Positions 3,330-28,655 of a DNA stretch of 31,193 bases are shown piece by piece. Each line of letters opens with the position of its first letter. Within the stretch, counting starts at the first letter, position 1. The DNA lies in the NCBI GenBank assembly GCA_025774805.1, contig JALGZR010000039.1, forward strand, positions 1 to 31,193, in the 5' to 3' direction. Origin of the DNA: a bacterium (lineage in GTDB: Bacteria > ARS69). The translations under genes and the position numbers were made by a program. Under the pieces are notes generated by a model. It saw only the letters and a list, made by a program, of their open reading frames with translations, was not told the origin of the DNA and ran no database searches.

Positions 3330-4114
3330 TATTCCCCCACTTCCAGCTCCCGGCGCAATCCCTTCGCCGCCGTCCGCAGCACCTCGTGCACGGCTCGAAG
3401 CTCATCCTCGTCCGGTCGGCCCGTCCACTCGTCCATGAAGAATTTCTTGAATTCCACGGCAAGGCAGCACACCGAGTCGGGAAACGTCGCATGCAACCAG
3501 CGTGAGAAGTGCCCGCCGCGAAACTTCACGTTCTCCCGAACGTCGAGCCGGCGTCCCCGGAAGTCGAAGCCGCGGACGTCCGCGAGGAAGCCATCCACGA
3601 GCTTCGCCCACCTCTCCCGGTCCATCGTTCCGGTGCCGAGGTTCACCTCCGGATTGCGTGCGGGATCGTCGTGCGGGGCCTCCGGGCCCTCCCGCCGATG
3701 GTTGTAGGAATGGAGATCCAGGACGACCACCCGTCCGCATCGCGACACCAGCCGCCCGACGACATCGCCCATCGCGGCGTAGAAGTCGTCGTACCGCGAG
3801 AGGGATCGCGCGATGATCTTGGGCGGTGGGGGGCTCTTCCAGACGCGCAGGCCCCACGCGTCCGCCGGCTTCAGGTAGACCGCCTTCTCCCGCGCCCGGT
3901 TGAGATCCACCTCGAATCGCGATTGACGGACGACGACCCTCGTGGGAGCCACGTCCGTCCACGTTCCGGTGAACGGGTCCTCCTCGCGGAGACGATCCGC
4001 GTCGCTCAGAAGCATGAGTTCCGCGACCTCTCGGCGGAGCCCGTGGCCGTCATGGATCGCCGTTGCGATCAGAGGGCCTTCGCCCTCCTCGATGTGCCAG
4101 GCTTCCTCGTTCAC
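3329..4114 (-). CDS. N-formylglutamate amidohydrolase-like protein
   Basis: The 261-aa product carries the N-formylglutamate amidohydrolase (FGase, HutG-type) pattern. Readable pieces include a DRLREEDPFTG segment, FEVDLNR, VVLDLHSYNHRR, PEVNLGTG, FRGGHFSRW and the C-terminal AVEFKKFFMDEWTG. FGases are zinc enzymes that hydrolyse an N-acyl amide, releasing formate and glutamate at the end of one histidine-degradation route. No hut genes are present. The gene instead heads an operon with a QEGLA peptidase and a GshB-like ligase, so the substrate is more likely an N-blocked glutamyl or similar small compound (inference). The ATG at 4114 is the first good start and follows a 216-bp gap that should hold the promoter. 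This assignment is secure at family level only. Confidence 0.85.
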   Translation of the reverse strand: MNEEAWHIEEGEGPLIATAIHDGHGLRREVAELMLLSDADRLREEDPFTGTWTDVAPTRVVVRQSRFEVDLNRAREKAVYLKPADAWGLRVWKSPPPPKIIARSLSRYDDFYAAMGDVVGRLVSRCGRVVVLDLHSYNHRREGPEAPHDDPARNPEVNLGTGTMDRERWAKLVDGFLADVRGFDFRGRRLDVRENVKFRGGHFSRWLHATFPDSVCCLAVEFKKFFMDEWTGRPDEDELRAVHEVLRTAAKGLRRELEVGE

Positions 4115-4330: not shown

Positions 4331-5647
4331 CTAGGGGCTCGATTCGGCGTCGGAACCGCCGGAATCCCTCTCGACCAGCACGCGAGAAACCCTCGTTGGC
4401 TCCGACGCGAGGACGGTAATCGTGTGGTCCCCCAGCCGAACGATCTCTCCGGCGCGCGGGATGTGTCCTAGCGACTCGATGAGGATCCCGCCCACGCTGT
4501 CGACCCCGAGTCCCTCCGGGATCCGGACGCCGCACTTCTCGGCAAAATCGTCGATCGGACACCTCGCGTCGACCTCGAAGCCGTCTCCCCTCTTCACGAT
4601 GAGCGGAGCCTCGTCGGCGTCGAACTCGTCCTCGATCGGCCCGACCATCTCCTCGAGGACGTCCTCGAGCGTGATCATTCCCGAGACGGAGCCGTACTCG
4701 TCCACGAGGATGGCCATGTGCGTCTTCGCCTTCTGGAACTCCTTGAGCAGGCTGTCGAGCTTCACCGTCTCGGGGAGGAACACCGCCTCACGGGCGACTT
4801 GCACGAGCGACGCCAGCTCTCCATCGAGGGTCATGGCGTTGAACACGTCCTTGATGTGGACCGTTCCCAGGATGTGGTCCAGATCTCCTTCGCACAGGGG
4901 CAGCCTCGTGTGGCCCGATCGGGAGGCCTTCTCGAGCTTGTCCTTCATCGAGTCGTTGCGGTTCAGGTACACGATCTGATTGCGTGGCACCATGTACCGG
5001 CGGGCCATCTTGTCCGCCAGGTCCAGGACGTTCTCCATGATGCGCCGCTCTCGGGCGCTGAGGTGACCCACCGCCGCCGACTGCGTGAGGATGACCCGCA
5101 CCTCTTCCTCCGTGATGGCTTGGTCATGCTCCGAAACGGTCTCCAGGCCCACGAGCTTGAGAATCCCGTTGCTCGAGACGTTGATCAGCCAGATGAAGGG
5201 CCTGAACATCCGATAGAACAGCGCGAGCGGGTAGGCGACCAGAAGAGTGGTCTCGCGGGCCTTCTGAATCGACGCGATCTTCGGGGCCTGTTCTCCGACG
5301 GTCAGGTGCAGAAACGTGATGACGCCGAAGGCCAAGGGGAAGGCGACGTAGTGCACCCTCTCCTCGGGCAACCCGAGAGTTCGAAACGCGGGCTCGATCA
5401 TCCGGGCCACCATGGGCTCGCCGGCCCATCCCAGGCCCAGACTGGCAAGCGTGATGCCGAGCTGACAGGCCGAGAGGTAGGCATCCAGGTGTTCGAGCAT
5501 GTGGTGGGCGAGACGCGCGGACCTGTCGCTGCGATCCGCGGCGCGATCGATCTCCGAGCCCCGAACCTTGACGAGGGCGAACTCCGCCGCGACGAAGAAT
5601 CCGTTCGCTCCCACCAGGAGCAGGACGACAACGATCTGCCAGATCAT
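4331..5647 (-). CDS. CNNM/CorC (HlyC)-type membrane protein with CBS pair
   Basis: The 438-aa product has the three-part architecture of the CNNM/CorC family. An N-terminal DUF21 membrane domain (about residues 1-190) starts directly with a hydrophobic helix and GANGFFVAAEFALVKVR. A CBS-domain pair follows (about 205-330, with MVPRNQIVYLNRN, GTVHIKDV and MAILVDEYGSVSGMITLEDVLEEMVG). A C-terminal CorC_HlyC transporter-associated domain ends near VLVERD. The family exports or controls Mg2+ and divalent ions, with the CBS pair sensing nucleotide or Mg2+. The ATG at 5647 was chosen over longer frames because the family begins exactly with this first helix and because it overlaps the stop of the preceding protease stump (ATGA). 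With MgtE at 16079, the window holds two Mg2+-related systems. Confidence 0.9.
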   Translation of the reverse strand: MIWQIVVVLLLVGANGFFVAAEFALVKVRGSEIDRAADRSDRSARLAHHMLEHLDAYLSACQLGITLASLGLGWAGEPMVARMIEPAFRTLGLPEERVHYVAFPLAFGVITFLHLTVGEQAPKIASIQKARETTLLVAYPLALFYRMFRPFIWLINVSSNGILKLVGLETVSEHDQAITEEEVRVILTQSAAVGHLSARERRIMENVLDLADKMARRYMVPRNQIVYLNRNDSMKDKLEKASRSGHTRLPLCEGDLDHILGTVHIKDVFNAMTLDGELASLVQVAREAVFLPETVKLDSLLKEFQKAKTHMAILVDEYGSVSGMITLEDVLEEMVGPIEDEFDADEAPLIVKRGDGFEVDARCPIDDFAEKCGVRIPEGLGVDSVGGILIESLGHIPRAGEIVRLGDHTITVLASEPTRVSRVLVERDSGGSDAESSP

Positions 5648-5925
5648 CGTTCCAATTCTCGCATCGGCCCGATCGTACCTCTCAAGGCGATGAGCGGCGA
5701 CGTCAGGCGAGTGCCTCCCGGCCGGCCTCTTCGAGCCCGCCAAGAAGGCCACTTTGCCTGGCAACCGAAGATCGCGAGGAGGAACCCCACCTCGACGATC
5801 GTGGCGGCGACCGATCGGCTCGTCTCCCAGTGCCCGAACGCGATCCAGCCGATGAGGAGCAGGAACGTCGCGTGATCGTGGACCCCGATCCCGGCGAACT
5901 CCCCGATTCTCCACGACCACTTCAT
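5644..5925 (-). pseudogene. Truncated site-2 protease (peptidase M50) remnant lacking HExxH
   Basis: The first 55 residues (MKWSWRIGEFAGIGVHDHATF, then a hydrophobic stretch ending AIFGC) match the start of bacterial site-2 protease/SpoIVFB-like M50 proteins. In those proteins this is followed directly by V-LHELGHA. Here it continues QAKWPSWRARRGRPGG and stops after 93 aa, so both the zinc motif and all later domains (LDG motif, CBS domains, 350+ aa) are absent. A good ribosome binding site (AAAGGGGAGAG) and the ATG remain, and the TGA overlaps the CNNM start by 4 bp. It may therefore still be translated as a leader peptide that couples expression of the CNNM gene. An internal deletion is more likely than a single frameshift, because no other frame restores HELGH. 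It could alternatively be a small functional membrane protein. Confidence 0.7.
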
Positions 5926-6083
5926 GGAATCTCTCCCCTTTCCGAACCGCCCGGAGTCTCGGATGATCGTATTCTGAAGTCAATCGGTCCGTCGGCCCGA
6001 CGTGATTCCCCTGCGCCACTTGCCCGGCGGGAATCGGGCGACGGGAGAGCCCCACCCCGGTTCGGTCGAGAAGGACGAAAGGC

Positions 6084-7865
6084 TTGCTGTCCATTTCCCT
6101 CCTCATGATTCTCACGGGTCTCGCCGCGATCGAGCCGGAACCGGTCGCCCCGGAGCGGATCGACGCCGCCTACCGGGGACTTCCGGTCTCCTCGTTGGAG
6201 ATCGAGGGGGTGGAGCGCGATCTCCGCGAACCGCTCCGCAGCGGCCTCGCCCTCGCGGGCCGCCGCCGGACGCTCGGACGCGAGCGCGCCCTCTTGTTCC
6301 CCGAGACCCTGGAGCAGGATCTGGCCCGCTGCCGCCTGTTCCTCGCGCGGCACGGCTACCCGGCGGCACGCGTGATTCCCGAGATCCGAGCCGCCGCCGA
6401 CGGGGCGAGTGTCCGGATCACTCTGCGAATCGCTCCGGGGTCGCCCGTACGCATTCGGGAGGTCGTGGCGCTCAGGCTGCCGGACGAAGCCGCTTCCGTG
6501 CGCGAGCCGAGAGCGGGCGACGTGTTCCGGGACGCCGCCGTGCGCGCGGCGGCGGATGATCTGGAGACGCGCCTCCGCGATCGAGGGTACGCTTTCGCCG
6601 AGGTCCAGCTCCGGGTCGAGACCGTCGACTCCACGCAAGTGGACGTGATCCTCGCGGCCGAGCCCGGGACGCGGTACCGGGTCGACCACGTCCGTGTCGA
6701 GGGTGTGAGTCCCGACCTCGTTCCTCTCGTGAAGGCGACTCCCGGATTGCGCACGGGCCGGCCGTTCTCTCCCGCCCGGCTCCGTGAGGCGGAGGTCGAT
6801 CTGCGCGAGCTCGAGCTCTTCCGCCAAATCCGCCTCGACCTCGTACCGCTCGGAGAGGAGCGGCTCGAGGTGCGGTGCGACCTCTCGGAGCGACCGCCGC
6901 GCACGCTCACCGTGGGAGTGGGCTACTTCAGCGACGAGCGGTTCCGCCTGGAGACGGACTGGGTCCACCGCAACCTCCTCGGCGGAGGGAGAGGCGGTCG
7001 GGTGGCCGGCCGGTTCTCGGAGTTCCTCCAGACCGCCCGGACCGAGCTTCTCTGGCCCCGGCTTTGGGGAACGAGGACCCGCGGGGCCGCCGGACTCGCC
7101 GTGCGGCGCGAGGACGAGGAGGCCTATCTGGTCTGGGACGTGCGCCTCGAGCTCACGGCACGCCGCCGATTGTCCCGGGTCCACGCCGTGACCGCGGGGA
7201 TCGCGACCTCCTACGTCGACGTGGAGTCGCGCACCGAGGACCCTGCCGCGATCGAGGAGCCCGCCGGTTTCATCACCGCGCTCCCCGTCTCCTGGACGCG
7301 CGACACCTCGGACCACCCGATCTACCCGAAGGAGGGGTCCCTTACGCGCGTTCAAGTCGAGGTCACGCCGCCGGGGATCGGCTCCGTCGCCCACTACGCA
7401 CGCGGCGAGGCGCAGGCGAGCCTCTACCGTCCGGCCGGAGGTACGGTTCTCGCCGCCCGCGCCCTGTTGGGCGCCGCGCATCCCCTCTCAGGCAGCGAGA
7501 CGGTGCTCGCCAGCAAGCGGCTTTTCTCGGGAGGCAGCCGCTCGATGCGCGGCTTCGGGCGCCGGGAGCTCGGCCCGCGAGACGCCGACGGCGACCCCCT
7601 GGGGGGCGAGGCGAAGGTCGAGGCTTCACTCGAGTGGCGCTTTCCCGTATTCGGGCGCTTCGAGGCCGCCGTTTTCGTCGACGCCGGACAGGTGTGGAGC
7701 GATCCGGCCTCCCTGCAACTCGCGGACTTGCGCTGGGCGGCCGGTCCGGCAGCGATGGTCCGTACCCCGGTCGGTCCGCTCCGCCTCGACCTCGGGTTTC
7801 TCTTCGATCCCGGGGAAGGAGAGTCCCGCCGCGTTCTCCACTTCTCCGTGGGACATCCGTACTGA
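6084..7865 (+). CDS. TamA/BamA-like outer-membrane protein (Omp85, POTRA + barrel)
   Basis: The 593-aa product begins with a short hydrophobic signal sequence (LLMILTGLA) and then has POTRA-like repeats up to about residue 300, with PVSSLEIEGV, PVRIREVV and YRVDHVRVEGV as strand starts. A C-terminal barrel with the bacterial surface antigen pattern follows. The barrel contains the conserved SMRGF motif (residues 487-491) of the lid loop of Omp85 proteins, and the chain ends in an aromatic residue (HPY). Omp85 proteins insert beta-barrels into the outer membrane, and the TamA branch works with TamB. The TTG at 6084 is preferred because AAGGACGAAAGG precedes it and it gives a complete signal peptide; ATG 6105 is the alternative. 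The stop overlaps the TamB start by one base (TGATG), which supports the TamA role. Confidence 0.9.
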   Translation: MLSISLLMILTGLAAIEPEPVAPERIDAAYRGLPVSSLEIEGVERDLREPLRSGLALAGRRRTLGRERALLFPETLEQDLARCRLFLARHGYPAARVIPEIRAAADGASVRITLRIAPGSPVRIREVVALRLPDEAASVREPRAGDVFRDAAVRAAADDLETRLRDRGYAFAEVQLRVETVDSTQVDVILAAEPGTRYRVDHVRVEGVSPDLVPLVKATPGLRTGRPFSPARLREAEVDLRELELFRQIRLDLVPLGEERLEVRCDLSERPPRTLTVGVGYFSDERFRLETDWVHRNLLGGGRGGRVAGRFSEFLQTARTELLWPRLWGTRTRGAAGLAVRREDEEAYLVWDVRLELTARRRLSRVHAVTAGIATSYVDVESRTEDPAAIEEPAGFITALPVSWTRDTSDHPIYPKEGSLTRVQVEVTPPGIGSVAHYARGEAQASLYRPAGGTVLAARALLGAAHPLSGSETVLASKRLFSGGSRSMRGFGRRELGPRDADGDPLGGEAKVEASLEWRFPVFGRFEAAVFVDAGQVWSDPASLQLADLRWAAGPAAMVRTPVGPLRLDLGFLFDPGEGESRRVLHFSVGHPY

Positions 7866-10800
7866 TGGAGGCCGCGCGCGGGAAGCGCCTCCTCCGGGCG
7901 CTCGTGCTGGCCGCCATCGTGGTAGCGCTCGCCGCGATCGCGCTCGCGTTCGTCTTCGCCGTGCCGGGGATCCGGGCCGGTCTCCTGCGAGAGGCGCTGC
8001 GCCGGACGGACGATTCCGTCCACGGGCGGCTGACGGTCTCGCGCCTGGCCTGGCCGCGGCTCGGGCGCTGGGAGCTTCGCGCTCTCCGCTGGACGAATGG
8101 AGCCGATACCCTCGCGGCCTGCGAAGGGCTCGATCTGCAGGTGAACGTCCGCGCGCTGCTCCGGCGCGATGTCCACGTGGAGGAGCTCACGGTTCGCGGT
8201 CTGCGGGTCGACGCGCCGGCGATCCGCGCCCTCTTCCCCCCGGAGGCGGGCGACGGAGCGAAGCCCGCCCCTCCGGCCCCGTTCCCCCGCGTGGGAAGTC
8301 TGCCGGCACTTCCCTCCTGCGCGGTCGACAGGTTCGACGTCGAGATCACCCGGCTGCGCCTCGCCACGGAGACGCCGCCCTCGCGAGGACGGGCTTCCGG
8401 CACGTTCGATGCGCGGGCCGGGCGGCCGCCCCGTCTCGTCCTGGAGAGCGTGACCGCGGAGCACCCGGCCGCTGGCGTCCTCCTCGGGCCGGGGCAACTG
8501 TCGATCGATCTCGCGACCGGCAGGTTCGAGGGCCGCGTTCCCGGGAGCTGGCGCGATCGGCCGTTCACGATCGCGGCGCGGCCCGAGCGGGACGACGGGT
8601 TCCGCCTGACGATCGGAATCACCCCCCGGCTTCCCGGTCTTCCCTCGGACGAGACGCTCGAGCTGCGCGTGACGGGGGACGCTCGGGTCGATCCGACCCC
8701 GGCCGCTCGACTGCACGTTTCCGCCGGTCCCTTCGCCGGGCTCGATTCGCTGTCGATGGACGTGGTCGCCGGCCCGGACCGGGCTTCCGTGTCCGATCTG
8801 CGCCTCTCCGGTGAAGGGCTCCGGCTCGCCGGGAGTTGGAGCATGGTCCGAGGACATCATGATCTCGCCGTCGATGCGCGGGTCGACGGCTCCGACTGGA
8901 TCGCGCCCTTCGTTCCCGCGGGCTCGCTCCCCGATTCGCTGGCCCTCAGCGTCGACCTCTCGGCGGAGGGTCCCGCGGACGGTCTCCGCGGCCGCGCGCT
9001 CATCGCGGGTAATCTCCGAGCGGACGCCGTCGCGGTGGACTCGCTGGAGCTCTCGATGCACGGGGCCTTCACGGGAAGCGATCCGCTCGCCTTCACGGGG
9101 GCCGCCCGCGCGCACGAGTTGTGGCTGACCGGAGCGGGAGATCTCGTCGGCCGTGATCCGGTGGAGGTCCGGCTCGGACCCTGGCGGCTCGGCGGAGAGC
9201 GGCTCGAGCCGCTGGGGTCCCGAGGGACCCGCGTGCGGTTCTACCCGCGGGACGAACGGATCACGGTGGAGGACCTGCGGCTTGCCGGCTGGCCCGGAGA
9301 CGTCCTCCTGAACGGCGGGTGGTCTCGCGACACCGGGGGCGAGGCCGATCTCCGGATTGCCTGGCCGGAGCCGCCGGCCGCGCTCGTGGCGCGGCTCCGC
9401 GCACCCCCCGATTCCCTGGCGGCACTCGCCGAACGGTGGAGGCGCGAGAGCGGATCGGGAGTCCGCGCCTCCGGGCGCCTCGATCCGGCGGGCGGATGGA
9501 CGGCGGACGCGCGCATGCGACTGCCCGGTCCTTCCACGCTCGCGCCGGTCCTGCCTCCGGGCCCCCGCTGGGAGGAGCTGTCGGCCGTCCGGGCGAGAGT
9601 CCGGGCGTCGGGCGATTCCACGGGTTTCGTCGCGCGCGTCGACGCGAGGGACACCGCCTGGCTGGAGGACGCGCGGCTCTCGCTGCGGGGGAATCACGGG
9701 ACGATCACTCTCGAGGAGGGAATCGTCCGGGGGCTCGGTCTGCTCGTGGAAGCGTCGGGAGTCGCGTCGGCCGAGAACGTCGATGCGAGGTTGGCGCTCG
9801 ACCTGGAGGGCGACGCCGGACTGCGTCTTCTCGCATCCGATCTCCCCGAAGAGATCACGGTCGGCGCCGCTGCCGACGTCGCGCTGCTCGGCCCTCCCGG
9901 GGCGCTGGCGGTTCGGGCCGACGCCAGCCTCCAGGCGCGGGGGCCGACCTGGCACGTGCCCGGTCTTCTCGTCACGGCGGAGATGGAAGGGGGTGCGCTC
10001 CGGCGGATCCGCGCGGACGGCGTGGACACCCTACGCGTGGGCTCGTACCGCTTCCACCGGTGGGCCGCGGCGATCCGCCCGCTCGCGCCCGCGACGGAAG
10101 AGTCGCGCCCGCCCCTCCTGGCCGCGCTCGAGCTGGAGGGAGACGAGCTCGGGTGGGCACAGGTCGCGAGCGTGGAATCCGGCGACCACTGGCGCGCGCA
10201 GACGGATACCCTCACGCTTCGGGTCAAGGACCGTCACCTCCGCACGGAGCGTCCGTTCCTCGTTCGCTGGAGCCCGTCGGACTCCGGGCTCTCCGTCGAG
10301 GGGCTGAGACTCCGGGGCGACCTGGGCTCGATCCGTGGCGACGGCGGGGTCGGCCCGGCGGAAGGGGACTTGCGTGTCGAGATCGATCTCGAGCGTCCGC
10401 CGAAGCTCGACGCCTGGTCGGTGCCTCCCGGGCTCTGGCCCGACCGGATGACCGGATGGGTCGAGATCGCGCGCCGGGACTCCGTGCGCGCCGACGTCGT
10501 GGCCGCAGGTTTGGAGCTCGGCCCTCTCCGCGAGGTCGACGCGCGGCTCACCGCGGAGACCGGTTCCGCCGGTCTCTTCGCTCACCTCGACATCGAGGAC
10601 GGTGACGCTCGACCGCTCCGGGTCGACGGGCACGCACCCTTCCTTCTGGACGTACTCGCGGCTCGAGCGACCGACACCGGCGGCGACCTCGATGTGACGC
10701 TCACCGCGAACAGGCTGCCCCTGCCGGAGCGCATCGATGGGGCGGCTCTCCGCTCCTACCTGGAGGGAGAGAGCGGCGGGGACGGCCCGCGCCTCGACGG

Positions 10801-14251: not shown

Positions 14252-15082
14252 TCACCGGCCGATCTGCTCCTCGATGAGTGCGCCGTTGGGAACCGTCCAG
14301 GCATGATCTCCGTCCCGGAAGAGCGTGTCGACCGGGCCGACCCGTTCCACGACGCCCCTCTGCCCCCGGACCTCGACGCTCGCCCCGGTGACGAGAGACT
14401 GTCGCAGGAAGTGCCCGGCGAAGATGTGGGTGAAGACCTTTCTTGCGCCGAGTGCCAGCGAGAGCCCCATCGAGAGGCCGACGGTCGCGGACAAAGTCGT
14501 GGCGATCAGAGTGAGAAACCAGGTCTCGATGCCCAGCTGTTCGAGCGCGAGGACGATGACGATCATCACGACGAGACCGCCCGCGGCGGTGGCGAGGTGG
14601 CGCGCCTGCCCGAGGTTCGCGACCGCCGCCGCCGATTCCACCACGTTTTGCACGAACCGACCCGTCAGGAGCCCGACGAGAAGAATCAGCGTGGCGGCCA
14701 GCACGTTGGGGAGATAGGCGATGAGGCGGTCGACGGTGGTCGCGACCGCGGCCAGCTCGAGCACCTCGAGCGCGGGCAAGAGGAAGGCCAGGATCAGGAT
14801 CCAGAACAGGAGCTGGGCCAGGACCCCCGATGCCCCCGTCGTGATTCCCGCCTGCCTCAGGGCGTCCGAGATGCGAAGGCGGTCGGCCGCCCGATCCACT
14901 CCGAATCGGCGCAGAGCTCGCGCGGAGACCTTTTCGACGAGCTTGGAGACGGCCCACCCGATCGCGAGAATGACGAGCGCCGCCACGAGCTTCGGTGCGG
15001 AGCCGGCCAGTGTCTCCCCGACCTGTCGAAAGGATTCTGTCAATACGTTGCGCCAAGCCTCGACGCTGGACATTCCGTTCAT
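14252..15082 (-). CDS. MscS-family mechanosensitive ion channel
   Basis: The 276-aa product has four to five membrane helices (PKLVAALVILAIGWAV, a QLLFWILILAFLLPAL segment, NVLAATLILLVGLLTGRF and GGLVVMIVIVLAL). The pore-lining stretch TLSATVGLSMGLSLALGARKVFTHIFAG follows, then a short beta domain (GQRGVVERVGPVDTLFRDGDHAWTVPNGALIEEQIGR) with the MscS PNG signature. It lacks the larger cytoplasmic C-terminal domain of E. coli MscS. Such proteins are often described as TM-helix/MscS fusions. They open under membrane tension to release solutes on hypo-osmotic shock. ATG 15082 is preferred over upstream alternatives because GGAGGGG lies about 8 nt before it. Confidence 0.88.
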   Translation of the reverse strand: MNGMSSVEAWRNVLTESFRQVGETLAGSAPKLVAALVILAIGWAVSKLVEKVSARALRRFGVDRAADRLRISDALRQAGITTGASGVLAQLLFWILILAFLLPALEVLELAAVATTVDRLIAYLPNVLAATLILLVGLLTGRFVQNVVESAAAVANLGQARHLATAAGGLVVMIVIVLALEQLGIETWFLTLIATTLSATVGLSMGLSLALGARKVFTHIFAGHFLRQSLVTGASVEVRGQRGVVERVGPVDTLFRDGDHAWTVPNGALIEEQIGR

Positions 15083-15230
15083 TCTTCTGTCCCCCTCCAG
15101 GCGATTGAACTCCACGTCTTTTCGAGCACGAGTTGGCGGTGAGAGAGCCCGTTGACCCGTAGGGTAAATGCGTGCATGCTCACCTCGACCGCTCGGCCGC
15201 CGGAGCGGTCGCTTCACGTGCGGGGCAGCG

Positions 15231-16082
15231 ATGGATCTCGAGCACAGTCTAGCCTACGCCGCTCTGGAGGCACATCCTCACGATGCGGCCCGGATCCTGG
15301 AGGATCTTCCCCGAGACGCTTCGGTGGCGATGCTGGGAAGGGCGACCCCCGACCTGGCCGCCGAGATTCTCAAGTTCGGTGCTCCACACTTCGCACTCGC
15401 CGTTCTCGAGGCCCTTCCGCCGGTCGAGGCCGGGCGTATTCTCGAGAGGACACCCGTCGAGGTCGCGGCGGGGCTCCTGGGGCGCCTCGGGGAGAACGAG
15501 CGGAACCCCCTTCTCGATGAGCTTCCCGGCTCCCGCGCACGCACGATCCGTTCGCTGCTGCGATACCCTCCGGGTTGCGCGGCCTCTCTGATGGATCCCC
15601 GTGCCCTGGCTCTACCGGAAGACGTCACGGTCGACGAAGCGTTGAAGCGCATTCGCCGGGAGCCCGGGAACGCGCTCTTTGAATTGTACGTGCTCGACCG
15701 CGCCGATGTGCTTCGGGGCGTCTCGAGCCTTCCGGCGGTGCTTGCGGCCCGCCCCGCGGACCCGCTGGGGACCATCATGAGCGCACCGGTTCCGAGCGCT
15801 CCGGCCCGGGCCTCCCGTCTGGCCGTTCTCGAACATGCCGGGTGGCGGACTCTCACGTCCCTTCCCGTGGTTGATGAACGGGGTGTCTTTCTGGGTGCGA
15901 TTCGCTGCCAAGTGTCTCGACAGTTCGAGATCGACTTCCGTACGGGAGAGCGCGATCCGAGAATCCAGACCGCTCGAGCGATCGGCGACATCTTCTCGGC
16001 GGCGGTCGGAGGTGTCGTCGAGGCCGTGGCCACGGGACTATCGGCTCCGCGGACGCCGCGCGGGGGGGGGCAGGGTCAGTGA
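15231..16082 (+). CDS. Soluble MgtE-N/CBS-type protein, no membrane domain
   Basis: The 283-aa product repeats the cytosolic half of MgtE. A helical superhelix resembling the MgtE N domain comes first (ILEDLPRDASVAMLGR, ILERTPVEVAAGLLGRL), then RSLLRYPPGCAASLMDPRALALPEDVTVDEALKRI, then a CBS-like region with SLPVVDERGVFLGAI. It ends in a Gly/Arg-rich tail without any transmembrane helix. In MgtE this half senses cytosolic Mg2+ and closes the pore. Its stop overlaps the GTG of a full-length MgtE by 4 bp, so the two are made together. It could be a regulatory partner subunit or a duplication that lost its pore. ATG 15231 is the start most consistent with similarity; its ribosome binding site is weak. 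Confidence 0.85.
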   Translation: MDLEHSLAYAALEAHPHDAARILEDLPRDASVAMLGRATPDLAAEILKFGAPHFALAVLEALPPVEAGRILERTPVEVAAGLLGRLGENERNPLLDELPGSRARTIRSLLRYPPGCAASLMDPRALALPEDVTVDEALKRIRREPGNALFELYVLDRADVLRGVSSLPAVLAARPADPLGTIMSAPVPSAPARASRLAVLEHAGWRTLTSLPVVDERGVFLGAIRCQVSRQFEIDFRTGERDPRIQTARAIGDIFSAAVGGVVEAVATGLSAPRTPRGGGQGQ

Positions 16083-17386
16083 AGACAGGGACGCGCCGGG
16101 CCGCGGCATCCCTCTCTCGGATGCTCTTGGACGTCTACCCGACCGAAGCTCTTCCTATCATCGAGTCCGCACCCGTGAAGGAGATCGCCGGCCTCCTTCG
16201 GAGAGAGCGGGCACGACGGGCGGCGGACATCCTGACGCGCCTCACCCCGGAGACGGCGGCCCAAGCGATCGCACAAGTCCCCCCCGAAGAGGTCGGCCCG
16301 ATTCTCGTCGAGCTCGAACCGAATCGAGCGGCCCTTCTTCTGGCGAGGCTCGACCCGGATGTCCGTGAGGAGCATCTGTCGAAGCTCGATCTGGAGCTGT
16401 CGGGCGAACTCCGGTCGCTCATGACCTATCCTCCCGACAGTGCCGGATCCCTGATGGATCCCCGGGTCATCACGTTTCGACCGGATACAACCGTGCGAGA
16501 AGCTACGCAGAAGATACGCCGGGTGCGCCGGAGACGGGTCCAGGACGTGTTCGTCGTGGATGAGGTCGGCCGGCTCGTTGGGTCCATTCCTCTGCAAGAG
16601 ATGTTCCTCGCGTCTACGAACGAGCCACTGCGAAGCGTCATGCGCGAGTCCCCTCCGCATGTCGAGGTGACGGCATCCAGGGACGCCGTGATCGAGATCC
16701 TGCAGCAGCACGGGTCGGAGAGCCTCCCCGTCCTGGATTTCGAAGGAAAGCTGGTCGGCGTGCTGCGGCAGCAGGAGCTCATCGCCACCGCCAGCGAAGA
16801 GGCGGCGGCGGGCGTCGTCACGATGACCGGGGCCAGTGTCGACGAGCGGGCCCTCTCCTCCCCCACCTTCGCCGTTCGCAAGCGTCTGGGCTGGCTCCAG
16901 GTCAATCTCCTCACCGCCTTTCTAGCCGCTGCGGTCGTCGGGATCTTCGAGGACACCATCGCTCGATTCACGGCTCTGGCGGTCCTCCTGCCGGTGGTGG
17001 CCGGTCAGTCGGGGAACACGGGAGCCCAGGCTCTCGCGGTGACCATGCGGGGTTTGGCCCTGCGGGAGATCCGCGTGCGTCACTGGCTGCGCGTGACGGT
17101 CAAGGAGATGATCGCCGGTTCGGTGAACGGGATCGCGGTGGGCCTCACGACGGCCGTCGCGGTCTACGTCTGGAGTCGCTCGACGGGCCTGGCCCTCGTC
17201 ATCGGCGTGTCCATGGTCATCTCCATGGCCATGGCCGGTCTGGCCGGAGCGACGATTCCGATCGCTCTCAGCTCTCTGCGGCAGGATCCCGCCCAGGCGT
17301 CCTCGATCATTCTCACGACGATCACGGACATCGTGGGATTCCTCAGCTTCCTCGGAATCGCGACCGCGTTCGCCTCGTTCTTGTGA
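16079..17386 (+). CDS. mgtE: MgtE magnesium channel/transporter
   Basis: The 435-aa product is a complete MgtE. The N domain (about 1-115) precedes YPPDSAGSLMDPRVITF at 117-133, which opens the CBS pair (to about 235), and five membrane helices occupy 270-435. The pore signature LLPVVAGQSGNTGAQALAVTMRGLAL (303-328) and TDIVGF (416-421) are present; D417 corresponds to the pore aspartate of the Thermus protein. MgtE imports Mg2+ and is gated by Mg2+ binding between the N, CBS and plug regions. Translation starts at GTG 16079, overlapping the stop of the soluble sensor-like paralogue (GTGA). No M-box-like leader was recognised in the 148-bp gap before 15231. Confidence 0.95.
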   Translation: MKTGTRRAAASLSRMLLDVYPTEALPIIESAPVKEIAGLLRRERARRAADILTRLTPETAAQAIAQVPPEEVGPILVELEPNRAALLLARLDPDVREEHLSKLDLELSGELRSLMTYPPDSAGSLMDPRVITFRPDTTVREATQKIRRVRRRRVQDVFVVDEVGRLVGSIPLQEMFLASTNEPLRSVMRESPPHVEVTASRDAVIEILQQHGSESLPVLDFEGKLVGVLRQQELIATASEEAAAGVVTMTGASVDERALSSPTFAVRKRLGWLQVNLLTAFLAAAVVGIFEDTIARFTALAVLLPVVAGQSGNTGAQALAVTMRGLALREIRVRHWLRVTVKEMIAGSVNGIAVGLTTAVAVYVWSRSTGLALVIGVSMVISMAMAGLAGATIPIALSSLRQDPAQASSIILTTITDIVGFLSFLGIATAFASFL

Positions 17387-17468: not shown

Positions 17469-18551
17469 TCACCGGGCCGCCAGCGCCATCACCGGGTCGA
17501 AGCCGAGTCCGGGGGCATCCGTCGGGCGTAGCTCACCGTCCTCGAGGATGACTGCATCCGCGGCGGGGTCATTCCGCAGGTCCAGGTGGCCGTCGAGATC
17601 GGCGTACAGGACGTTGGCGCGGGACAGGGCGAAGTGCAGGCCCGCGGCGATGGCGAGGGCCGACTCGTCCATGCACCCGACCATGACCTCGAGGCCGGCG
17701 GCCCGGGCGACGGAGTTCACGTGCAGGGCCTGCGCAATCCCTCCGACCTTCATGAGCTTGACGTTGACCATGTCGGCCAAAGCCACGGAGGCGATCCGAA
17801 ACGCATCCCGCAGGCCGAGCAGGCTCTCGTCGGCCATGACCGGGAGCGGGGCCATCTGGCGGACCTCGGCGAGCTGATCCGGCTTGCCTCGCGGCGTCGG
17901 CTGCTCCAGCAGCTCGAGGCGCGCGTCGCGGGTGCGCTCGACGAACTCCGCCGACTCCGCGACGGTGAACCCCTGATTCGCGTCGAAGCGAAGCTCCACG
18001 CCCGCTCCCACCGCCTTGCGGATGCCGAAGACCCTTTCGATGTCCTCCTCGAGGCACTTCCCCCCCTTGATCTTCAGAGCTCGGAACCCCTCGCCGACGC
18101 GGCGACGGGCCTCCTCGACCGCCCGCCGAACCGGAAGGATTCCGATCGTCACGCTGGTCGGGATTCGGTCTCGATATCCGCCGAGGATTTGCCAGAGCGG
18201 GAGTCCGGCGCGCTTGCCGAGGATGTCGTGCAGGGCCATGTCTACGGCAGCCAGGGCCGAGCGGTCGGTTCTGAGGGGTTCGGCCAGCTCCTCGAGCAGG
18301 CGGATCCGAGCCAGGGGGTTCTCCCCGTGCAAGGCCGGCTCGACGACGTCGCCGAATCGCGCGAGGACGGACTCGGGTGTCTCGCCGGTGACGGCCCGGT
18401 CCGGCGCCGCGCACCCCCATCCGAGAACGCCGTCATCGGTGCGCAACCGGAGAAAGACGTTCGTGGCGGTCGCCACGGTCTCGTAGGAGATGGCGTACGG
18501 CTCCGCGAGCGGCATCTCCACGGCCCAAAAGTCGATCCCGACGATTCGCAC
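17469..18551 (-). CDS. Dipeptide epimerase / N-acyl-glutamate racemase-like (enolase superfamily)
   Basis: The 360-aa product is a complete muconate-lactonising-enzyme subgroup member of the enolase superfamily. The two active-site lysines are at K160 (KIKGG, 160-164) and K265 (VKLMKVGG). The Mg2+ ligands are D190 (FDANQGF), E216 (EQP) and D241 (ADES). The C-terminal DLD at 318-320 is typical of dipeptide epimerases such as L-Ala-D/L-Glu epimerase. The related DgcA racemises N-acetyl-D-glutamate next to a DUF1611 partner (DgcN), and a DUF1611 gene lies two genes upstream here. Reaction: 1,1-proton transfer at an alpha-carbon. The GTG at 18551 is 7 nt after the fusion gene's stop with GAGAG upstream. 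The choice between dipeptide and N-acetyl-glutamate substrate cannot be made from sequence alone. Confidence 0.88.
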   Translation of the reverse strand: MRIVGIDFWAVEMPLAEPYAISYETVATATNVFLRLRTDDGVLGWGCAAPDRAVTGETPESVLARFGDVVEPALHGENPLARIRLLEELAEPLRTDRSALAAVDMALHDILGKRAGLPLWQILGGYRDRIPTSVTIGILPVRRAVEEARRRVGEGFRALKIKGGKCLEEDIERVFGIRKAVGAGVELRFDANQGFTVAESAEFVERTRDARLELLEQPTPRGKPDQLAEVRQMAPLPVMADESLLGLRDAFRIASVALADMVNVKLMKVGGIAQALHVNSVARAAGLEVMVGCMDESALAIAAGLHFALSRANVLYADLDGHLDLRNDPAADAVILEDGELRPTDAPGLGFDPVMALAAR

Positions 18552-18558
18552 GGCGCTC

Positions 18559-20913
18559 TCAGTACCTCCGCTCGTAGATCTCGTCGAGGGTCATGCGCTT
18601 CAGGTGCTCGACGAGCTCCACGAGATTCCGAATCATCGTCTCCCAGATTCTCTCGCCCTTCTCCCGCGTGGCCCGTGTCGGATCCCCCAGAACGCCCTGC
18701 GTCGAGATCCTCTTCGTTCGCGCGTACCACTCGACGCTCCGCTTTCCGCTGAAGTCCAGGTACGTGCTCGAGAAACGGGGAACGAATCGCCGGGCGCCCG
18801 CCATGTCCACTAGATGAGGGCGCACCGCGAGGGTCGTGCTCGTTTCGATCTCTCCGGCGTGGACATCGTTCGGGGTCTCGGCGATCGTCGCGACGTCCGC
18901 GTTCGAGGTCTCACCGGTGTCTACGCACGTGAAAATGTGGGCGTCGCGGTTGATCATCTGAGCCGCGAACTGGAGCGTGGGGGCGTTGCCCCCGTGTCCG
19001 TTGACGATCACGAGCTTCGTGATCCCGTTCCGCGCAGCTCCGAGACCGATCTCGTAGACGAAGCGCGCGAGCGTCTCGTTCGTTACGCTGAGCGTCCCGG
19101 GGAAGTCCTCGTGGTGATATGAGACGCCGTAGGGCACGAGGGGGAGCACGAGCGGGTGCGGCTCGGTGCAGGTCTCCGCGACCCGTTCGGCCAAGTACTG
19201 CGCGTCGAAGGCGTCCGTGTCGAGCGGCGAGTGCGGGCCGTGCTGCTCGAGCGCCCCGACGGGGAGCAGTGCGAGGTCCACGCGCTTGAGGCGATCGCGC
19301 GCTTCGGGCCAGGTGAGCTCTCCGAGGATGTGGGAGCGCTTCCGGGGAGCCGCTTTGGCGGCTCTGCCGGGTGCGACGTTCGCGGGGCCGCCGCCTTCCG
19401 CTCCGTCCCCCGATCGCCGGTCGAAGGGGAAGGGCCGATGGACCTCCGGGTCGGTTCGGAAGTCGAGATCGACCCAGACACGGCCCTGACGACGAACCGC
19501 CCCATCCGCGTGCTGATCGAAGATCTCGAGCAGGGGTAGACGGATGTCGGACGGAACCGTGTCCAGGGGAGATCGATCCGGATCGATCCGGATCTTGCGG
19601 ATCACCGCGTGCTCACGGGCGGCGGGGACCGGCGGAATCATTCCCTTCTCGGCGAGCCGGAAGAGGAGATGCGAGACCCCCGCCGGCTCCTGCTTCAAGG
19701 AACGCTGCGGGAGCGTCTCGAGACAGCGGCGAATCTGCTCGTCCGTGTAACCGCAAGGACGGGGGTCCGCACCGATCGCGGTCATCATGCCCACGATGCG
19801 CCGGCACTTCTCACAGTTGCCGCAGGGGCGAACGCGCTCGCCGTCGAGATGCGTCGCGTGGCACGACATCTGGTGACGTTGCAGGTCCGGATACCGCCTC
19901 GCCAAGATCTCCTGGATGAGCATCTCGGAGAGCGGGCGCAGAACCGAGAATTGACTCACGCACCAGCCCTTGCGGTGGAAGAAACGCGTCATCGCCGAGT
20001 CGAACCACCGGCTCTGATCGTACATCCCGTCGTAGTGCGTGATGCCGTGGAACGCTCCTCGGGTGGATGTGTCGAACTCGTCCCCGATGACGAGGCGGCC
20101 CACGCCCCGACGGCGAAGGATCGGCAACGCGCCGAAGAGGAAGACTGCGACCGTCCAGAGGCGAATGGGGTAGATGTCCGATCGGACGCGGGAGAAATCC
20201 GACCGCACAAAGGGGAGCTGCCGCAGCATCCAGGCGAAGAGGCGGTCGCAGTTCGTCCATACCCGTGCGGTGCCGGGAACGTGTTCGCGGAAGTGGCGGT
20301 AAGCGTTGAGCGCCGTATACCAGTGCCTTCCCGACTCGTTCACGAACACCGGGAGAGGGTTCGCGCCGATTTCGCGGAGGAGGCCGAACGTCAGGAGGCT
20401 GTCCTTGCCACCGGAGGAGAGGACCGCGTGCCGGGTGGCCTCTCCCGTCCACGCGGAGGAGCGGGTCGCCGGCACGGGCTCGTCGAAGAGGAGCTCGGCG
20501 CGCGTGTGGCGGTCCGCGCGCTCCGGCCGCTCCGGCCGGGTCCCGTTCACGAGGAACGGATTCTCGCCGAGGATCTTGTGAACCCAGATCTCGCGAGACG
20601 TGTTCTCCATCATCTTCAGGAGAAACGCCCGGTCGGCGCCGTCCAACGGACCTCGCAGAACGATCTCCCGGCAGAAGAGACCGTAGTTGAGCGCCACTTG
20701 GGCGCCGATCAGCGCCGCCAGATTGCGGTCCTCCTCCGCGTCGGGGCGTAGGACGTCCTCCTCCCAGCGGTAGATCAGGTCGTGGGAGTCGGTGCGGTCG
20801 CCGACCGTCACGTGATAGGGGACGACCACGCGGCGTGTCTCCACCACCGGCGGGCCCACGGCGAGCCGGTCGATTACCACGAGCCGATCCGAAACCGGGC
20901 GCGTCATCGTCAT
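18559..20913 (-). CDS. Fusion of PP-loop ATPase (MurL/QueC-like) and creatininase-family amidohydrolase
   Basis: The 784-aa chain has two halves. Residues 1-155 are a beta-rich region followed by helices. Residues 160-400 are a PP-loop AMP-forming ATPase with SSGGKDS at 166-172 and a Cys cluster, C351 plus CGNCEKC at 364-370, like the zinc motif of QueC. The N-terminal layout resembles MurL, which epimerises the glutamate of a peptidoglycan precursor through an adenylate. After a Pro/Gly-rich linker (about 440-525), residues 527-784 are a complete creatininase-family domain: GALEQHGP (E556, H558), D567, NGHGGN (638-643) and HAGEIETS (685-692), which carry the metal ligands. ATG 20913 overlaps the DUF1611 stop by 4 bp. 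Adenylating ligase or epimerase plus amide hydrolase in one polypeptide is unusual; the substrate is unknown. Confidence 0.87.
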   Translation of the reverse strand: MTMTRPVSDRLVVIDRLAVGPPVVETRRVVVPYHVTVGDRTDSHDLIYRWEEDVLRPDAEEDRNLAALIGAQVALNYGLFCREIVLRGPLDGADRAFLLKMMENTSREIWVHKILGENPFLVNGTRPERPERADRHTRAELLFDEPVPATRSSAWTGEATRHAVLSSGGKDSLLTFGLLREIGANPLPVFVNESGRHWYTALNAYRHFREHVPGTARVWTNCDRLFAWMLRQLPFVRSDFSRVRSDIYPIRLWTVAVFLFGALPILRRRGVGRLVIGDEFDTSTRGAFHGITHYDGMYDQSRWFDSAMTRFFHRKGWCVSQFSVLRPLSEMLIQEILARRYPDLQRHQMSCHATHLDGERVRPCGNCEKCRRIVGMMTAIGADPRPCGYTDEQIRRCLETLPQRSLKQEPAGVSHLLFRLAEKGMIPPVPAAREHAVIRKIRIDPDRSPLDTVPSDIRLPLLEIFDQHADGAVRRQGRVWVDLDFRTDPEVHRPFPFDRRSGDGAEGGGPANVAPGRAAKAAPRKRSHILGELTWPEARDRLKRVDLALLPVGALEQHGPHSPLDTDAFDAQYLAERVAETCTEPHPLVLPLVPYGVSYHHEDFPGTLSVTNETLARFVYEIGLGAARNGITKLVIVNGHGGNAPTLQFAAQMINRDAHIFTCVDTGETSNADVATIAETPNDVHAGEIETSTTLAVRPHLVDMAGARRFVPRFSSTYLDFSGKRSVEWYARTKRISTQGVLGDPTRATREKGERIWETMIRNLVELVEHLKRMTLDEIYERRY

Positions 20914-22025
20914 GGGACTGCTCGCCGGTCCTCGACGGGCAGGGCGTCCACGCCGTGAACGGGGGCCAGCGAGCGCACGAGCGGAGCGGCGCCCTCCAGG
21001 AGCACGTCGTGGGCGGGAAGTCCGGTCTCCTCCCGGATCCTCGCGCAAACCTCCGGCACCGCCTCCGGATCGAGCCCTTCGTGGTTCACCGTGATCGCCA
21101 CCACGGGGCGCCCGGAGATCAATTCGACGGCCCGGATCTGATCGGTCAGGGCGTGGATCGGATAGCCGGGGAACCCGTCGTAGTCCCGGCGGGCGGGCGC
21201 GTGCTGGAGAACGACGGCGTGAGGCCGTCCCGCGGCGAGGAGCTCGAAACCTCCCGGGTAGGCGGGATTCATCAAGCTCCCTTGTCCCTCGAGTACGATC
21301 ACGTCGGGCCGGAGCTCCCGCCAGGCTCTCCAGACCATGTGCTCGATCTCACCCGACACGAAATCGTTGACGAGCGAATCCAAGATGATCGAGTAGTCCG
21401 CACCCTGGAACCAGGCCGTCTGGCCGGTTCCAGCCAGAACTGCGGAGAGCCCGGCGTCGTGCAGCCCATCGACGAGCTCCCACGCCGTCGTTCGCTTTCC
21501 GACCGCAGAGTCCGTCCCGAGTATCGCGATTCGAAGGGAGCCGACCTCTTCGATCTTCCCGGAGAAGGAGTGGAGCTCCGGTCGTGGCGGAGGCCGGCGA
21601 ATGTCGCGAATCCGGACTCTGCGCGCCGCAGCGGCCGCCGCTATGGTCGGATCCTCGGAGAGAAACGTGTGCAGTCCCGAGTCCACGTGGAGTCCGGCGG
21701 CGATCGCACGCAGCACACGTTCCCGATCCGTGGACGCGAGCCGGCCCCCGTCCGGGGCGAGTCCCATGACGAAGTGCGTCAACCGGTTTCCCACGCGGGC
21801 CGCCTGGGCCACGGCCGTCACCAGATTGGGAACGATGGGGATCCCGCAGGGCTCTCCGTCGAGAACGTCCCCCGCGTCTCTTCCCGCCAACCGCGAGTCG
21901 ATCACGGAGCTCACGACGTACCGACGGGTTCGCCGCACGAGACCGTGCGCCGTCTTCCCATTTGTCGTGCCGAACGCCCGCTCGCAGTAGACGACGGCGT
22001 TCCCCTCCGGGAATCTCCACATCAT
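20910..22025 (-). CDS. DUF1611 P-loop protein (DgcN-like)
   Basis: The 371-aa product belongs to the DUF1611 family. It has an N-terminal Rossmann-like domain (RRYVVSSVIDSRLAGRDAG, THFVMGLAPDGG) and a C-terminal P-loop domain with GTDSAVGKRTT at 170-180 and VLEGQGSLMNPAY near 244-256. One studied branch, DgcN, acetylates D-glutamate ahead of the racemase DgcA; an enolase-superfamily epimerase is in the same operon here. The first two codons are both ATG (22025 and 22022) with GGGGAGAGG just before. The gene overlaps its neighbours by 4 bp on both sides. N-acyltransferase activity on an acidic amino acid or peptide is therefore a reasonable guess, not shown by the sequence. Confidence 0.85.
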   Translation of the reverse strand: MMWRFPEGNAVVYCERAFGTTNGKTAHGLVRRTRRYVVSSVIDSRLAGRDAGDVLDGEPCGIPIVPNLVTAVAQAARVGNRLTHFVMGLAPDGGRLASTDRERVLRAIAAGLHVDSGLHTFLSEDPTIAAAAAARRVRIRDIRRPPPRPELHSFSGKIEEVGSLRIAILGTDSAVGKRTTAWELVDGLHDAGLSAVLAGTGQTAWFQGADYSIILDSLVNDFVSGEIEHMVWRAWRELRPDVIVLEGQGSLMNPAYPGGFELLAAGRPHAVVLQHAPARRDYDGFPGYPIHALTDQIRAVELISGRPVVAITVNHEGLDPEAVPEVCARIREETGLPAHDVLLEGAAPLVRSLAPVHGVDALPVEDRRAVP

Positions 22026-23122
22026 CCTCTCCCCGTCGCCACGGCGACGTAGCGGTCGCTTCCGAGGGGGCTCTTCCGATGGCCGTCGATCAACGCGATC
22101 AGCCCGGCCATCGACGCGGGCAGTGTGCTGAGGCCCTCCCTCTCCCGCATCGTACGGGCGAACTGTCGCATGGCGCGGTCACTCGCGTAGGAGGCCCAGC
22201 CGTTCGTCGCCCGCACCGCGTCGAGCGCCGTTTGGCCGTCGGAGGCGTGCCAGTTGACGAGCGGCTCGTTCACGGCGGACTCGCGCACCCGCGCCGGGTC
22301 GAGGTCCTCGCACTGCGTGGAGCCCCTGAGATACGATTCGACGATCGGGTTCTTCCGGAACGTGGAGCCCGCGATCATCCGGGGGATGCGTGACGTCTTG
22401 CCCCGCCGGTACAGGCTGAGAAACCCGTGATGGATCCCGGCCAGTGTCGTTCCGTTCGACACCGGGACGGCGACCGCCGCGGGGGCGTCGCGGAGCTCGT
22501 CGTAGATCTCGTACGCGATCTCACCGTAGGCCCGGAGCTGCAGGAGCGTGTTCGATCCCCCGGGATTCGCGTCGTACACATCCTCCCGCGCCGCGCACTC
22601 GCGCGACGCCGCCACCGCCGCTTCGTAGTCCCCCGGGGCGCGTCGAACCTCGGCTCCGAGCGACTCGATCTCCGCGATCCGGCGGGTGCGGTAGCCCTCC
22701 GGGACGAACACCACGCAGCGGAGCCCCCCGCAGTTCGCGGCCAGCGCCATCGCGACCCCGTAGTTCCCGCACGAAGCGGCGGTGATCGCGTCGAACCCTC
22801 GCCGCAGTGCGTCCATCGCCTGCGTGAACGCGATCCGGTCCTTCTGGGTACCGGTCGAGTTACCGCCCTCGAACTTCACATAGAGCTGGCGAATCCCGAT
22901 CTCCCGCTCGATGTTGCGGGCCCGTGCGAGGGACGTGTCCCCGATCTCCGACTCGAAGAGGTGCTCGAAGCTCTCCAGACGGGTTTCGAGAGGCGCACGG
23001 TGATCGGCGGCGACGCGGCGATCCTCGTCCCAGATCCCGAGGCTCAGATCGGAACTCGGAATCGCCGCGTCGAGAAGAGTGGGAGTCTCGTCGGTCGCCA
23101 CCTGCGGCTCGGATCGCTCCAC
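22022..23122 (-). CDS. Threonine-synthase-like PLP-dependent enzyme (fold type II)
   Basis: The 366-aa product is a fold-type II PLP enzyme. The Schiff-base lysine is K94 in GGNSTGTQKDR. The SCGNYGVA segment at 117-124 holds the asparagine that contacts the cofactor, and VSNGTTLAG forms part of the phosphate loop. It is most like threonine synthase or related beta/gamma-replacement enzymes, but it lacks the long N-terminal domain of classical ThrC. The first 60 residues are poorly conserved and acidic. The GTG at 23122 is only two bases after the stop of the small acidic ORF, and the stop overlaps the DUF1611 start. No other threonine-pathway gene is near. In this operon it may supply or consume an unusual amino acid for the PP-loop/creatininase enzyme (inference). 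Confidence 0.83.
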   Translation of the reverse strand: MERSEPQVATDETPTLLDAAIPSSDLSLGIWDEDRRVAADHRAPLETRLESFEHLFESEIGDTSLARARNIEREIGIRQLYVKFEGGNSTGTQKDRIAFTQAMDALRRGFDAITAASCGNYGVAMALAANCGGLRCVVFVPEGYRTRRIAEIESLGAEVRRAPGDYEAAVAASRECAAREDVYDANPGGSNTLLQLRAYGEIAYEIYDELRDAPAAVAVPVSNGTTLAGIHHGFLSLYRRGKTSRIPRMIAGSTFRKNPIVESYLRGSTQCEDLDPARVRESAVNEPLVNWHASDGQTALDAVRATNGWASYASDRAMRQFARTMREREGLSTLPASMAGLIALIDGHRKSPLGSDRYVAVATGRG

Positions 23123-23124
23123 CG

Positions 23125-23337
23125 CTAGGGCGCCCCGAACGCGTCCCGATCGTCGTACAGATCGAAGTCCTCGTGATCATCCCGTGACGTCCCGTCCCCA
23201 TCCTCGCCAATCGCGGAATCGTCATCCTCCCAGCCTTCGTCCCAATCATCCTCCCAACCCGACTCTCGCTGGAAGCGGTCGGGGAGTCGGGGGGGGCGCC
23301 TGAGGTCGTCAAACGCGAAACGGTAGGTGCGTGACAT
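23125..23337 (-). CDS. Small acidic hypothetical protein, first gene of operon
   Basis: This 70-aa reading frame starts at ATG 23337 with GAGGAGAAT about 8 nt upstream, a strong ribosome binding site, and ends two bases before the PLP-enzyme start. After a basic head (MSRTYRFAFDDLRRPPRLP) the rest is strikingly acidic and Trp-rich (EDDWDEGWEDDD, then DDHEDFDLYDDRD). I recognise no family. Its position and tight spacing make it part of the five-gene operon. It could be a carrier or scaffold peptide, a substrate of the downstream peptide-type enzymes, or an intrinsically disordered regulator; none of these is shown. Confidence 0.6.
   Translation of the reverse strand: MSRTYRFAFDDLRRPPRLPDRFQRESGWEDDWDEGWEDDDSAIGEDGDGTSRDDHEDFDLYDDRDAFGAP

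Positions 23338-26644: not shown

Positions 26645-28655
<2,011 letters not shown>

Follow-up and report, generated by a model that had tools for sequence, protein, structure and literature searches.

The window considered here, a stretch of 31,193 nucleotides (contig JALGZR010000039.1 of assembly GCA_025774805.1, from a bacterium of the GTDB lineage ARS69), contains a compact run of genes in which five enzyme activities are encoded by four neighbouring genes: a pyridoxal phosphate (PLP) enzyme, a DUF1611 protein, a PP-loop ATP pyrophosphatase fused to a creatininase, and an epimerase of the enolase superfamily. An earlier note on this DNA described a tight five-gene operon centred on glutamate stereochemistry, and all five open reading frames (ORFs) of the putative operon lie on the minus strand where that note placed them. 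The conserved unit, however, consists of four overlapping or abutting genes and spans 17469-23122. It comprises the PLP enzyme gene (22022..23122, 366 aa), the DUF1611 gene (20910..22025, 371 aa), the fusion gene (18559..20913, 784 aa with the ATG at 20913 as start) and the epimerase gene (17469..18551, 360 aa). Overlaps of 4 bases occur at the PLP/DUF1611 and DUF1611/fusion junctions, and a gap of 7 bases separates fusion from epimerase; a longer, 829-aa ORF of the fusion begins inside the DUF1611 gene. A scan for promoters and terminators detected nothing. The fifth ORF, small and acidic (23125..23337, minus strand, 70 aa), sits directly upstream of the PLP gene; the ORF containing it has no Pfam or NCBIfam match, and in other cassettes the 900 bases preceding the PLP gene hold no comparable acidic ORF, save for a possible relative at locus L027, in a genome from the window's own family. 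Judged by this distribution, it is outside the conserved cassette, though in the same gene run here. A LysW-like carrier and a QueC-type protein substrate were both rejected as roles for the acidic protein on the same grounds.

The operon is conserved and real. A profile of the PP-loop domain searched against 84,980 species genomes yielded 116 confirmed relatives, of which the best 80 were read, with adjacency counted only at loci whose contigs leave room for the partner. The PLP gene adjoins the PP-loop gene at 67 of 72 such loci, the DUF1611 gene is adjacent at 65/73, the creatininase at 69/72 and the epimerase at 50/59. From phylum to phylum the genes recur in the order PLP, DUF1611, PP-loop, creatininase, epimerase, which puts the operon beyond chance. 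Conserved co-occurrence had been proposed as a check in the earlier note, and the partners are indeed adjacent across phyla, with orthologues not scattered without each other. Among the best 80 of 116 relatives, hosts belong to about a dozen bacterial phyla, across which the cassette parts are roughly 50-70% identical: Bacteroidota, Thermodesulfobacteriota, Myxococcota, Acidobacteriota, Gemmatimonadota, Planctomycetota, Latescibacterota, Krumholzibacteriota, Zixiibacteriota, Ignavibacteriota, Calditrichota and others. Within the window's own phylum the fusion occurs in three of five genomes searched, and the readable neighbours match in the other two carriers. The distribution is patchy, as only 7 of 299 genomes of Flavobacteriaceae, the family of Kordia, carry the cassette, and Muriicola has its PLP and DUF1611 genes ~8 kb away from the rest.

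The PP-loop and creatininase parts are usually fused and are separate neighbouring genes in many Bacteroidota, a pattern that ties the two to one pathway. Pairwise distances among the five parts correlate (r 0.43-0.81, highest for PLP/PP-loop and PP-loop/creatininase, both 0.81; shared host ancestry contributes), as would be expected for a unit with common descent of the hosts adding to the signal. In the PP-loop tree, Bacteroidota, Thermodesulfobacteriota and Myxococcota are split by starred branches, and the Desulfobacula sequence (L100) groups among Bacteroidota. This topology suggests horizontal transfer of the cassette, in a tree many of whose rows are metagenome-assembled genomes (MAGs). 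A mobile element was considered and rejected, the cassette not being found in 72,556 plasmid records.

The domain calls made in the earlier note hold, with PALP, DUF1611, creatininase and MR_MLE recognised by Pfam and the PP-loop domain by its motifs and model. This QueC/QatC-like domain occupies residues 1-500 of the fusion (19414..20913, minus strand) and includes an N-terminal extension. No Pfam family exceeds its cut-off there (best DUF6395, 17.8 bits); QueC itself (PF06508, gathering score 22) is missed at 12.6 and 11.6 bits in the copies at L003 and L004 and is unlisted for the window. The SGGKDS pyrophosphate-binding loop (residues 167-172, 20398..20415, minus strand), which stands within SSGGKDSLL, has S167, G168, G169, K170 and S172 invariant in 67 of 67 sequences and D171 in 63 of 67, for a loop pattern SGGK[DE]S. 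A zinc-type four-Cys motif, C351..C364-x2-C367-x2-C370 (19804..19863, minus strand), is likewise present in all 67. The corresponding QueC motif is C(x)8CxxCxxC (PMC13329287), and the zinc-site cysteines of QatC are C334/C354/C357/C360 (PMC13279940). An AlphaFold2 model of the domain from 67 homologues (pLDDT 92.5, pTM 0.92) adopts the QueC fold, matching QatC (9y02, Z 14.3 over 317 residues, including the QatC N-terminal extension), QueC (2pg3, Z 13.1) and Cap9 (9nto, Z 13.0), with Z below 10 for other PP-loop enzymes. Modelled fold, SGGxDS loop and Cys4 zinc motif together place the domain in the QueC family. Invariant H293, D299-Q300-S301 and F304-D305 lie, as placed by eye, near the region of the QueC YPDC substrate motif; the invariant D-Q-S follows Y/F298 at the likely YPDC place, also judged by eye, and the putative substrate-recognition region seems to differ from that of QueC. 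Members of this family perform ATP-dependent carboxylate chemistry, by which QueC produces an amide and a nitrile and Cap9 a protein amide; the chemistry of the family extends to amide bonds at the N-terminus of a protein (PMC13279940, PMC13329287). A defence system was considered and rejected: none of three PP-loop proteins has a PADLOC match, and the neighbours are metabolic enzymes, not the QatA/B/D or CD-NTase partners of QatC and Cap9 defence.

A linker with pLDDT under 50 (about residues 500-524, 19342..19416, minus strand) connects the PP-loop domain to the creatininase, and since it is disordered the whole-fusion model (pTM 0.65) gives no domain-contact information. The creatininase (amidohydrolase) domain (residues 525-784, 18559..19341, minus strand) passes the PF02633 gathering score at 244 bits. 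Its metal motif, EQHG..DTD..NGHGGN..HAGE, is intact, with EQHG, D.D, H and E conserved in the family.

The first enzyme of the cassette is a fold-type II, threonine-synthase-like PLP enzyme (PALP, 179 bits) with its Schiff-base lysine, K94, in GTQKDR; this motif and CGNYG are conserved in the family. The protein passes PRK06381 (408 bits against a cut-off of 266; 407 in Kordia) and misses the thrC model TIGR00260 (83 bits vs 167). A separate thrC lies above cut-off in 9 of 12 cassette hosts, so that the PLP enzyme is not simply a housekeeping threonine synthase, and a role as sole threonine synthase was rejected for those nine. In two draft MAGs (G000, G003) no better thrC was found than the cassette enzyme. 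The DUF1611 protein (PF07755, 204 bits, and PF17396, 80 bits, both above gathering score) combines a Rossmann-like N-terminal domain with a P-loop C-terminal domain that retains an intact GTDSAVGKRT and that, from this motif, we take to be BioD/CobB-like. Its solved relatives are 2g0t, 2obn and 7xrj, and its positions 173, 256 and 258 are S, Y and G in the cassette as against C, G and C in six paralogues.

The epimerase (MR_MLE N- and C-terminal domains, 69 + 169 bits) has dipeptide epimerases as its best solved relatives: 3rit, 1jpm (an L-Ala-D/L-Glu epimerase) and 3jva. The catalytic bases K162, in the KxK motif (18066..18068), and K268 (17748..17750), the metal-ligand residues E216 and D241, and the DxD motif D318-L-D320 (17592..17600), all on the minus strand, are present in 59 of 59 cassettes, and the catalytic lysines of YkfB are likewise numbered K162 and K268 (PMC5808125). 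Judged by alignment, the protein thus carries the lysine pair, metal ligands and DxD expected of a dipeptide epimerase. In dipeptide epimerases the DxD holds the free amino group of the substrate. What sets the cassette family apart is position 24 (18480..18482, minus strand), which is acidic in 58 of 59 sequences (E 56, D 2, A 1) and is Arg in the aligned YkfB and 3rit. Four genomes that also carry the cassette contain a second DUF1611 and epimerase pair (L119-L122), ~40% identical to the cassette pair; there position 24 is K, K, K and R. The cassette family is further marked by KGG, against KIG in these paralogues, and by GC[MIL]DE. R24 of YkfB would face the Glu side chain, and with E24 in its place glutamate appears unlikely as the epimerised residue.

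We tentatively propose, with somewhat less than even confidence, that the cassette encodes a pathway for a small amide or dipeptide-like compound containing an epimerised residue other than glutamate, perhaps cationic, that is D-configured at some stage. The PLP enzyme would supply a non-standard amino acid by β- or γ-replacement or elimination, like its relatives, and the QueC-like domain would then adenylate a carboxylate and join it to an amine, giving an amide. Inversion of the α-carbon beside the free carboxylate would fall to the epimerase, its E24 lying opposite a side chain that is positive or neutral in place of the glutamate carboxylate, and the creatininase domain might hydrolyse an amide on the same pathway, for release, deprotection or proofreading. 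The DUF1611 protein could carry out a second nucleotide-dependent activation, or an acyl transfer, on the same molecule. What each step does chemically would follow from the enzyme superfamilies; their order, the substrate and the product we infer. The proposal is consistent with the linkage across phyla, the pattern of fused and separate genes and the correlated distances. It also accords with the predicted QatC/QueC/Cap9 fold bearing SGGKDS and Cys4, and with K162, K268, the DxD and an acidic residue 24 where paralogues have K/R.

Several points weigh against this proposal. Besides the PP-loop domain, no conserved amino-acid ligase lies alongside, so that the amide-forming step rests on fold analogy; a conserved extra ligase was sought among the neighbours and rejected, ATP-grasp genes occurring near L035 only. 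The same parts would fit a hydrolytic or salvage direction, and the substrate assignments for all cassette proteins are predictions. The link between residue 24 and the substrate side chain is a prediction drawn from YkfB and its E. coli counterpart, and 3rit, a cationic-dipeptide epimerase, also has Arg24, so that specificity must depend on more than residue 24. Finally, the epimerase is missing from the cassettes at L066 and L105 and DUF1611 from those at L033, L054 and L105, the last retaining only cassette-type PLP, PP-loop and creatininase genes. Some missing partners are located elsewhere in the same genome, and both proteins may be dispensable, or replaced by paralogues, in some hosts.

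One alternative is catabolic salvage of an unusual D-residue-containing or cyclic amide, in which epimerase and creatininase would be degradative and the PLP enzyme a lyase. Most creatininases and dipeptide epimerases serve catabolism, some relatives of the PLP enzyme are ammonia-lyases, and transporters adjoin some copies of the cassette. An ATP-consuming PP-loop enzyme is nonetheless a core, tightly linked part of the unit, and the cassette has no one transporter or peptidase as a constant neighbour; salvage is on balance unlikely.

A further possibility, compatible with the proposed amide pathway, is a role in osmolyte or ion homeostasis, the cassette producing a compatible solute that is a neutral amide or an acylated amino acid. 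In the window, an MscS-type transmembrane protein and two MgtE genes lie beside the cassette, with a CNNM/CorC gene at a distance of 11 kb; L035 has genes for lysine-2,3-aminomutase, a GNAT protein and two ATP-grasp proteins within a few kb. A census of 107 first-neighbour proteins, compared with distal control genes, counted MscS 4 times, AA_permease/SLC12 5, CorA 2, TerC 3 and DUF2179 8. Only DUF2179 exceeds the distal controls, with 8 against no more than 1 (Fisher p 0.007-0.035 without correction for multiple tests, many families having been looked at); the differences for MscS (4 against 2) and AA_permease (5 against no more than 1) fall short of significance. Hot springs or a freshwater lake, moreover, are the apparent sources of some hosts. 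Ectoine replacement was considered as well: no ectoine synthase lies above cut-off in 18 hosts, a result that is uninformative since non-hosts were not compared. The ion and osmotic neighbours are a lead only, and we consider a solute function improbable.

The glutamate focus of the earlier note fares less well. A D-glutamyl pathway, supplying or salvaging N-acyl-D-Glu or L-Ala-D/L-Glu for the cell wall, would draw on the pairing of DUF1611 with an enolase-superfamily epimerase at the four non-cassette sites L119-L122, as in DgcN/DgcA, on a weak MurL match of the PP-loop domain (28 bits) and on the presence of the L-Ala-D/L-Glu epimerase 1jpm among the solved relatives of the epimerase. Against it stands E/D24 in place of K/R, and no glutamate-family model reaches its cut-off: the DUF1611 protein scores 143 bits against 480 for DgcN (NF041892), and the epimerase 164 against 400 for the N-acetyl-D-Glu racemase DgcA (NF042940) and 219 vs 500 (NF041118, Thermotoga) and 103 vs 343 (PRK15129) for L-Ala-D/L-Glu epimerases. 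The K/R24 paralogues miss the epimerase cut-offs too, so this test alone does not separate them from the cassette. The MurL-like label gives way to QatC, QueC and Cap9 as the confident structural relatives. Nor do hosts generally lack murI, as the note had suggested might be checked: it lies above cut-off in 17 of 21 hosts examined, the window's genome included, and the cassette was accordingly rejected as a murI substitute. The four genomes without murI above cut-off are those of two Desulfosarcina, one deltaproteobacterial MAG and one Phycisphaerales MAG (G060, G061, G075 and G077, hosts of L053, L061, L037 and L079). Taken together, a D-glutamyl role is quite unlikely. Very improbable is a Cap9/QatC-like modification of a protein or peptide with the small acidic protein as substrate, which would be in keeping with the QatC fold match over the N-terminal extension, the acidic ORF upstream in the window and the thought that QatC modifies the QatB N-terminus (PMC13279940), and which is opposed by the absence of that ORF from other cassettes except for its possible L027 relative, the lack of a conserved partner protein or a PADLOC match, and neighbours that are small-molecule enzymes.

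Other genes near the cassette, here and elsewhere, include the ion-handling genes of the window at 14252-17386 and 4331-6115 (MscS-type, two MgtE-like, CNNM/CorC), the MgtE-like gene at 15168-16082 comprising N and CBS parts only. DUF2179-domain membrane proteins of the YitT or DUF5698 type (families f6 and f12) occur near the cassette at L029, L030, L034, L035, L037, L041, L042, L045, L054, L068, L079 and L098; the genes examined from neighbour families f4 and f11 are two-component and sigma-54 regulators. Positions 1-4163 of L035 hold the lysine-2,3-aminomutase gene, two adjacent ATP-grasp genes resembling D-Ala-D-Ala ligase, and the GNAT gene. At 373-4114 of the window, on the minus strand, is a separate tight group that we take to resemble predicted amidoligase clusters: a glutathione-synthetase-like ATP-grasp gene (373-1545), a MATCAP/DUF1704-type peptidase gene (1416-3329) and, third, an N-formylglutamate amidohydrolase gene (3329-4114). 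Two long ORFs of 519 and 843 aa without Pfam match lie at 5922-9955 (minus strand), and a TCP-1/cpn60 family chaperonin gene (252 bits) at 27036-28655 (plus strand).

The cassette draws on known superfamilies throughout; neither their combination nor the QueC-like/creatininase fusion is described in the literature searched. No description of DUF1611 with an epimerase, of a creatininase with a dipeptide epimerase or of the whole set emerged from that search, which most subscription journals lay outside, and the earlier note's view of a tightly linked, widely conserved and undescribed operon is borne out to this extent. Given its spread over about a dozen phyla, the cassette probably makes or handles something useful, yet the models matched by its parts go by the names threonine synthase, DUF1611, creatininase and muconate cycloisomerase. 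Recent work found enzymes of the QueC family repurposed to modify proteins in phage defence, and the proposed pathway, if true, would be a further use of the QueC scaffold, in small-molecule metabolism. A wider version, possible and in our judgement rather doubtful, would have a novel, probably horizontally spread pathway in which a QueC-family enzyme, for the most part fused to a creatininase, links two units resembling amino acids through an amide, which a dipeptide epimerase of reversed charge then inverts. Marine, sediment and other bacteria would in this way make a new metabolite with a D-residue, perhaps an osmolyte. Direct tests are possible in cultured hosts (Kordia, Muriicola, Robiginitalea, Maribacter, Flexithrix, Desulfosarcina).

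The cassette bears partial resemblance to several known systems. Its PLP enzyme is like threonine synthase in passing PRK06381, whereas its GTQKDR lysine loop and SNGT loop depart from thrC in alignment. The side-by-side DUF1611 and enolase-superfamily partners recall DgcN/DgcA, but both cassette proteins fall far below the NCBIfam equivalog cut-offs and are joined by PLP, PP-loop and creatininase partners. For the creatininase domain, the best NCBIfam match is MftE, the mycofactocin creatininase, whose metal-ligand motifs are kept; the score, however, is below cut-off (TIGR03964, 154 bits here and 147 in Kordia against 172), as is that for the NCBIfam creatininase model (101 vs 235), and no other mycofactocin gene is recognised in the cassette. 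MurL, which requires ATP and releases AMP (PMC5808125), shares weak similarity with the PP-loop domain around the Cys motif (28.3 bits, residues 364-418 only), but the 700-bit equivalog score of NF041275 is not approached and the operon partners are others. The PP-loop fold, SGGxDS loop and four-Cys motif are common to QueC, Cap9 and QatC, and the N-terminal extension to QatC; in contrast to these, the cassette protein lies far below the QueC Pfam cut-off, is usually fused to a creatininase and has no queD or queE beside it. The epimerase, in turn, shares K162, K268, the DxD, its length and its numbering with the dipeptide epimerases YkfB (1jpm/1tkk), 3rit/3ro6 and the Thermotoga enzyme (2zad), and departs from them in carrying E24 instead of R24.

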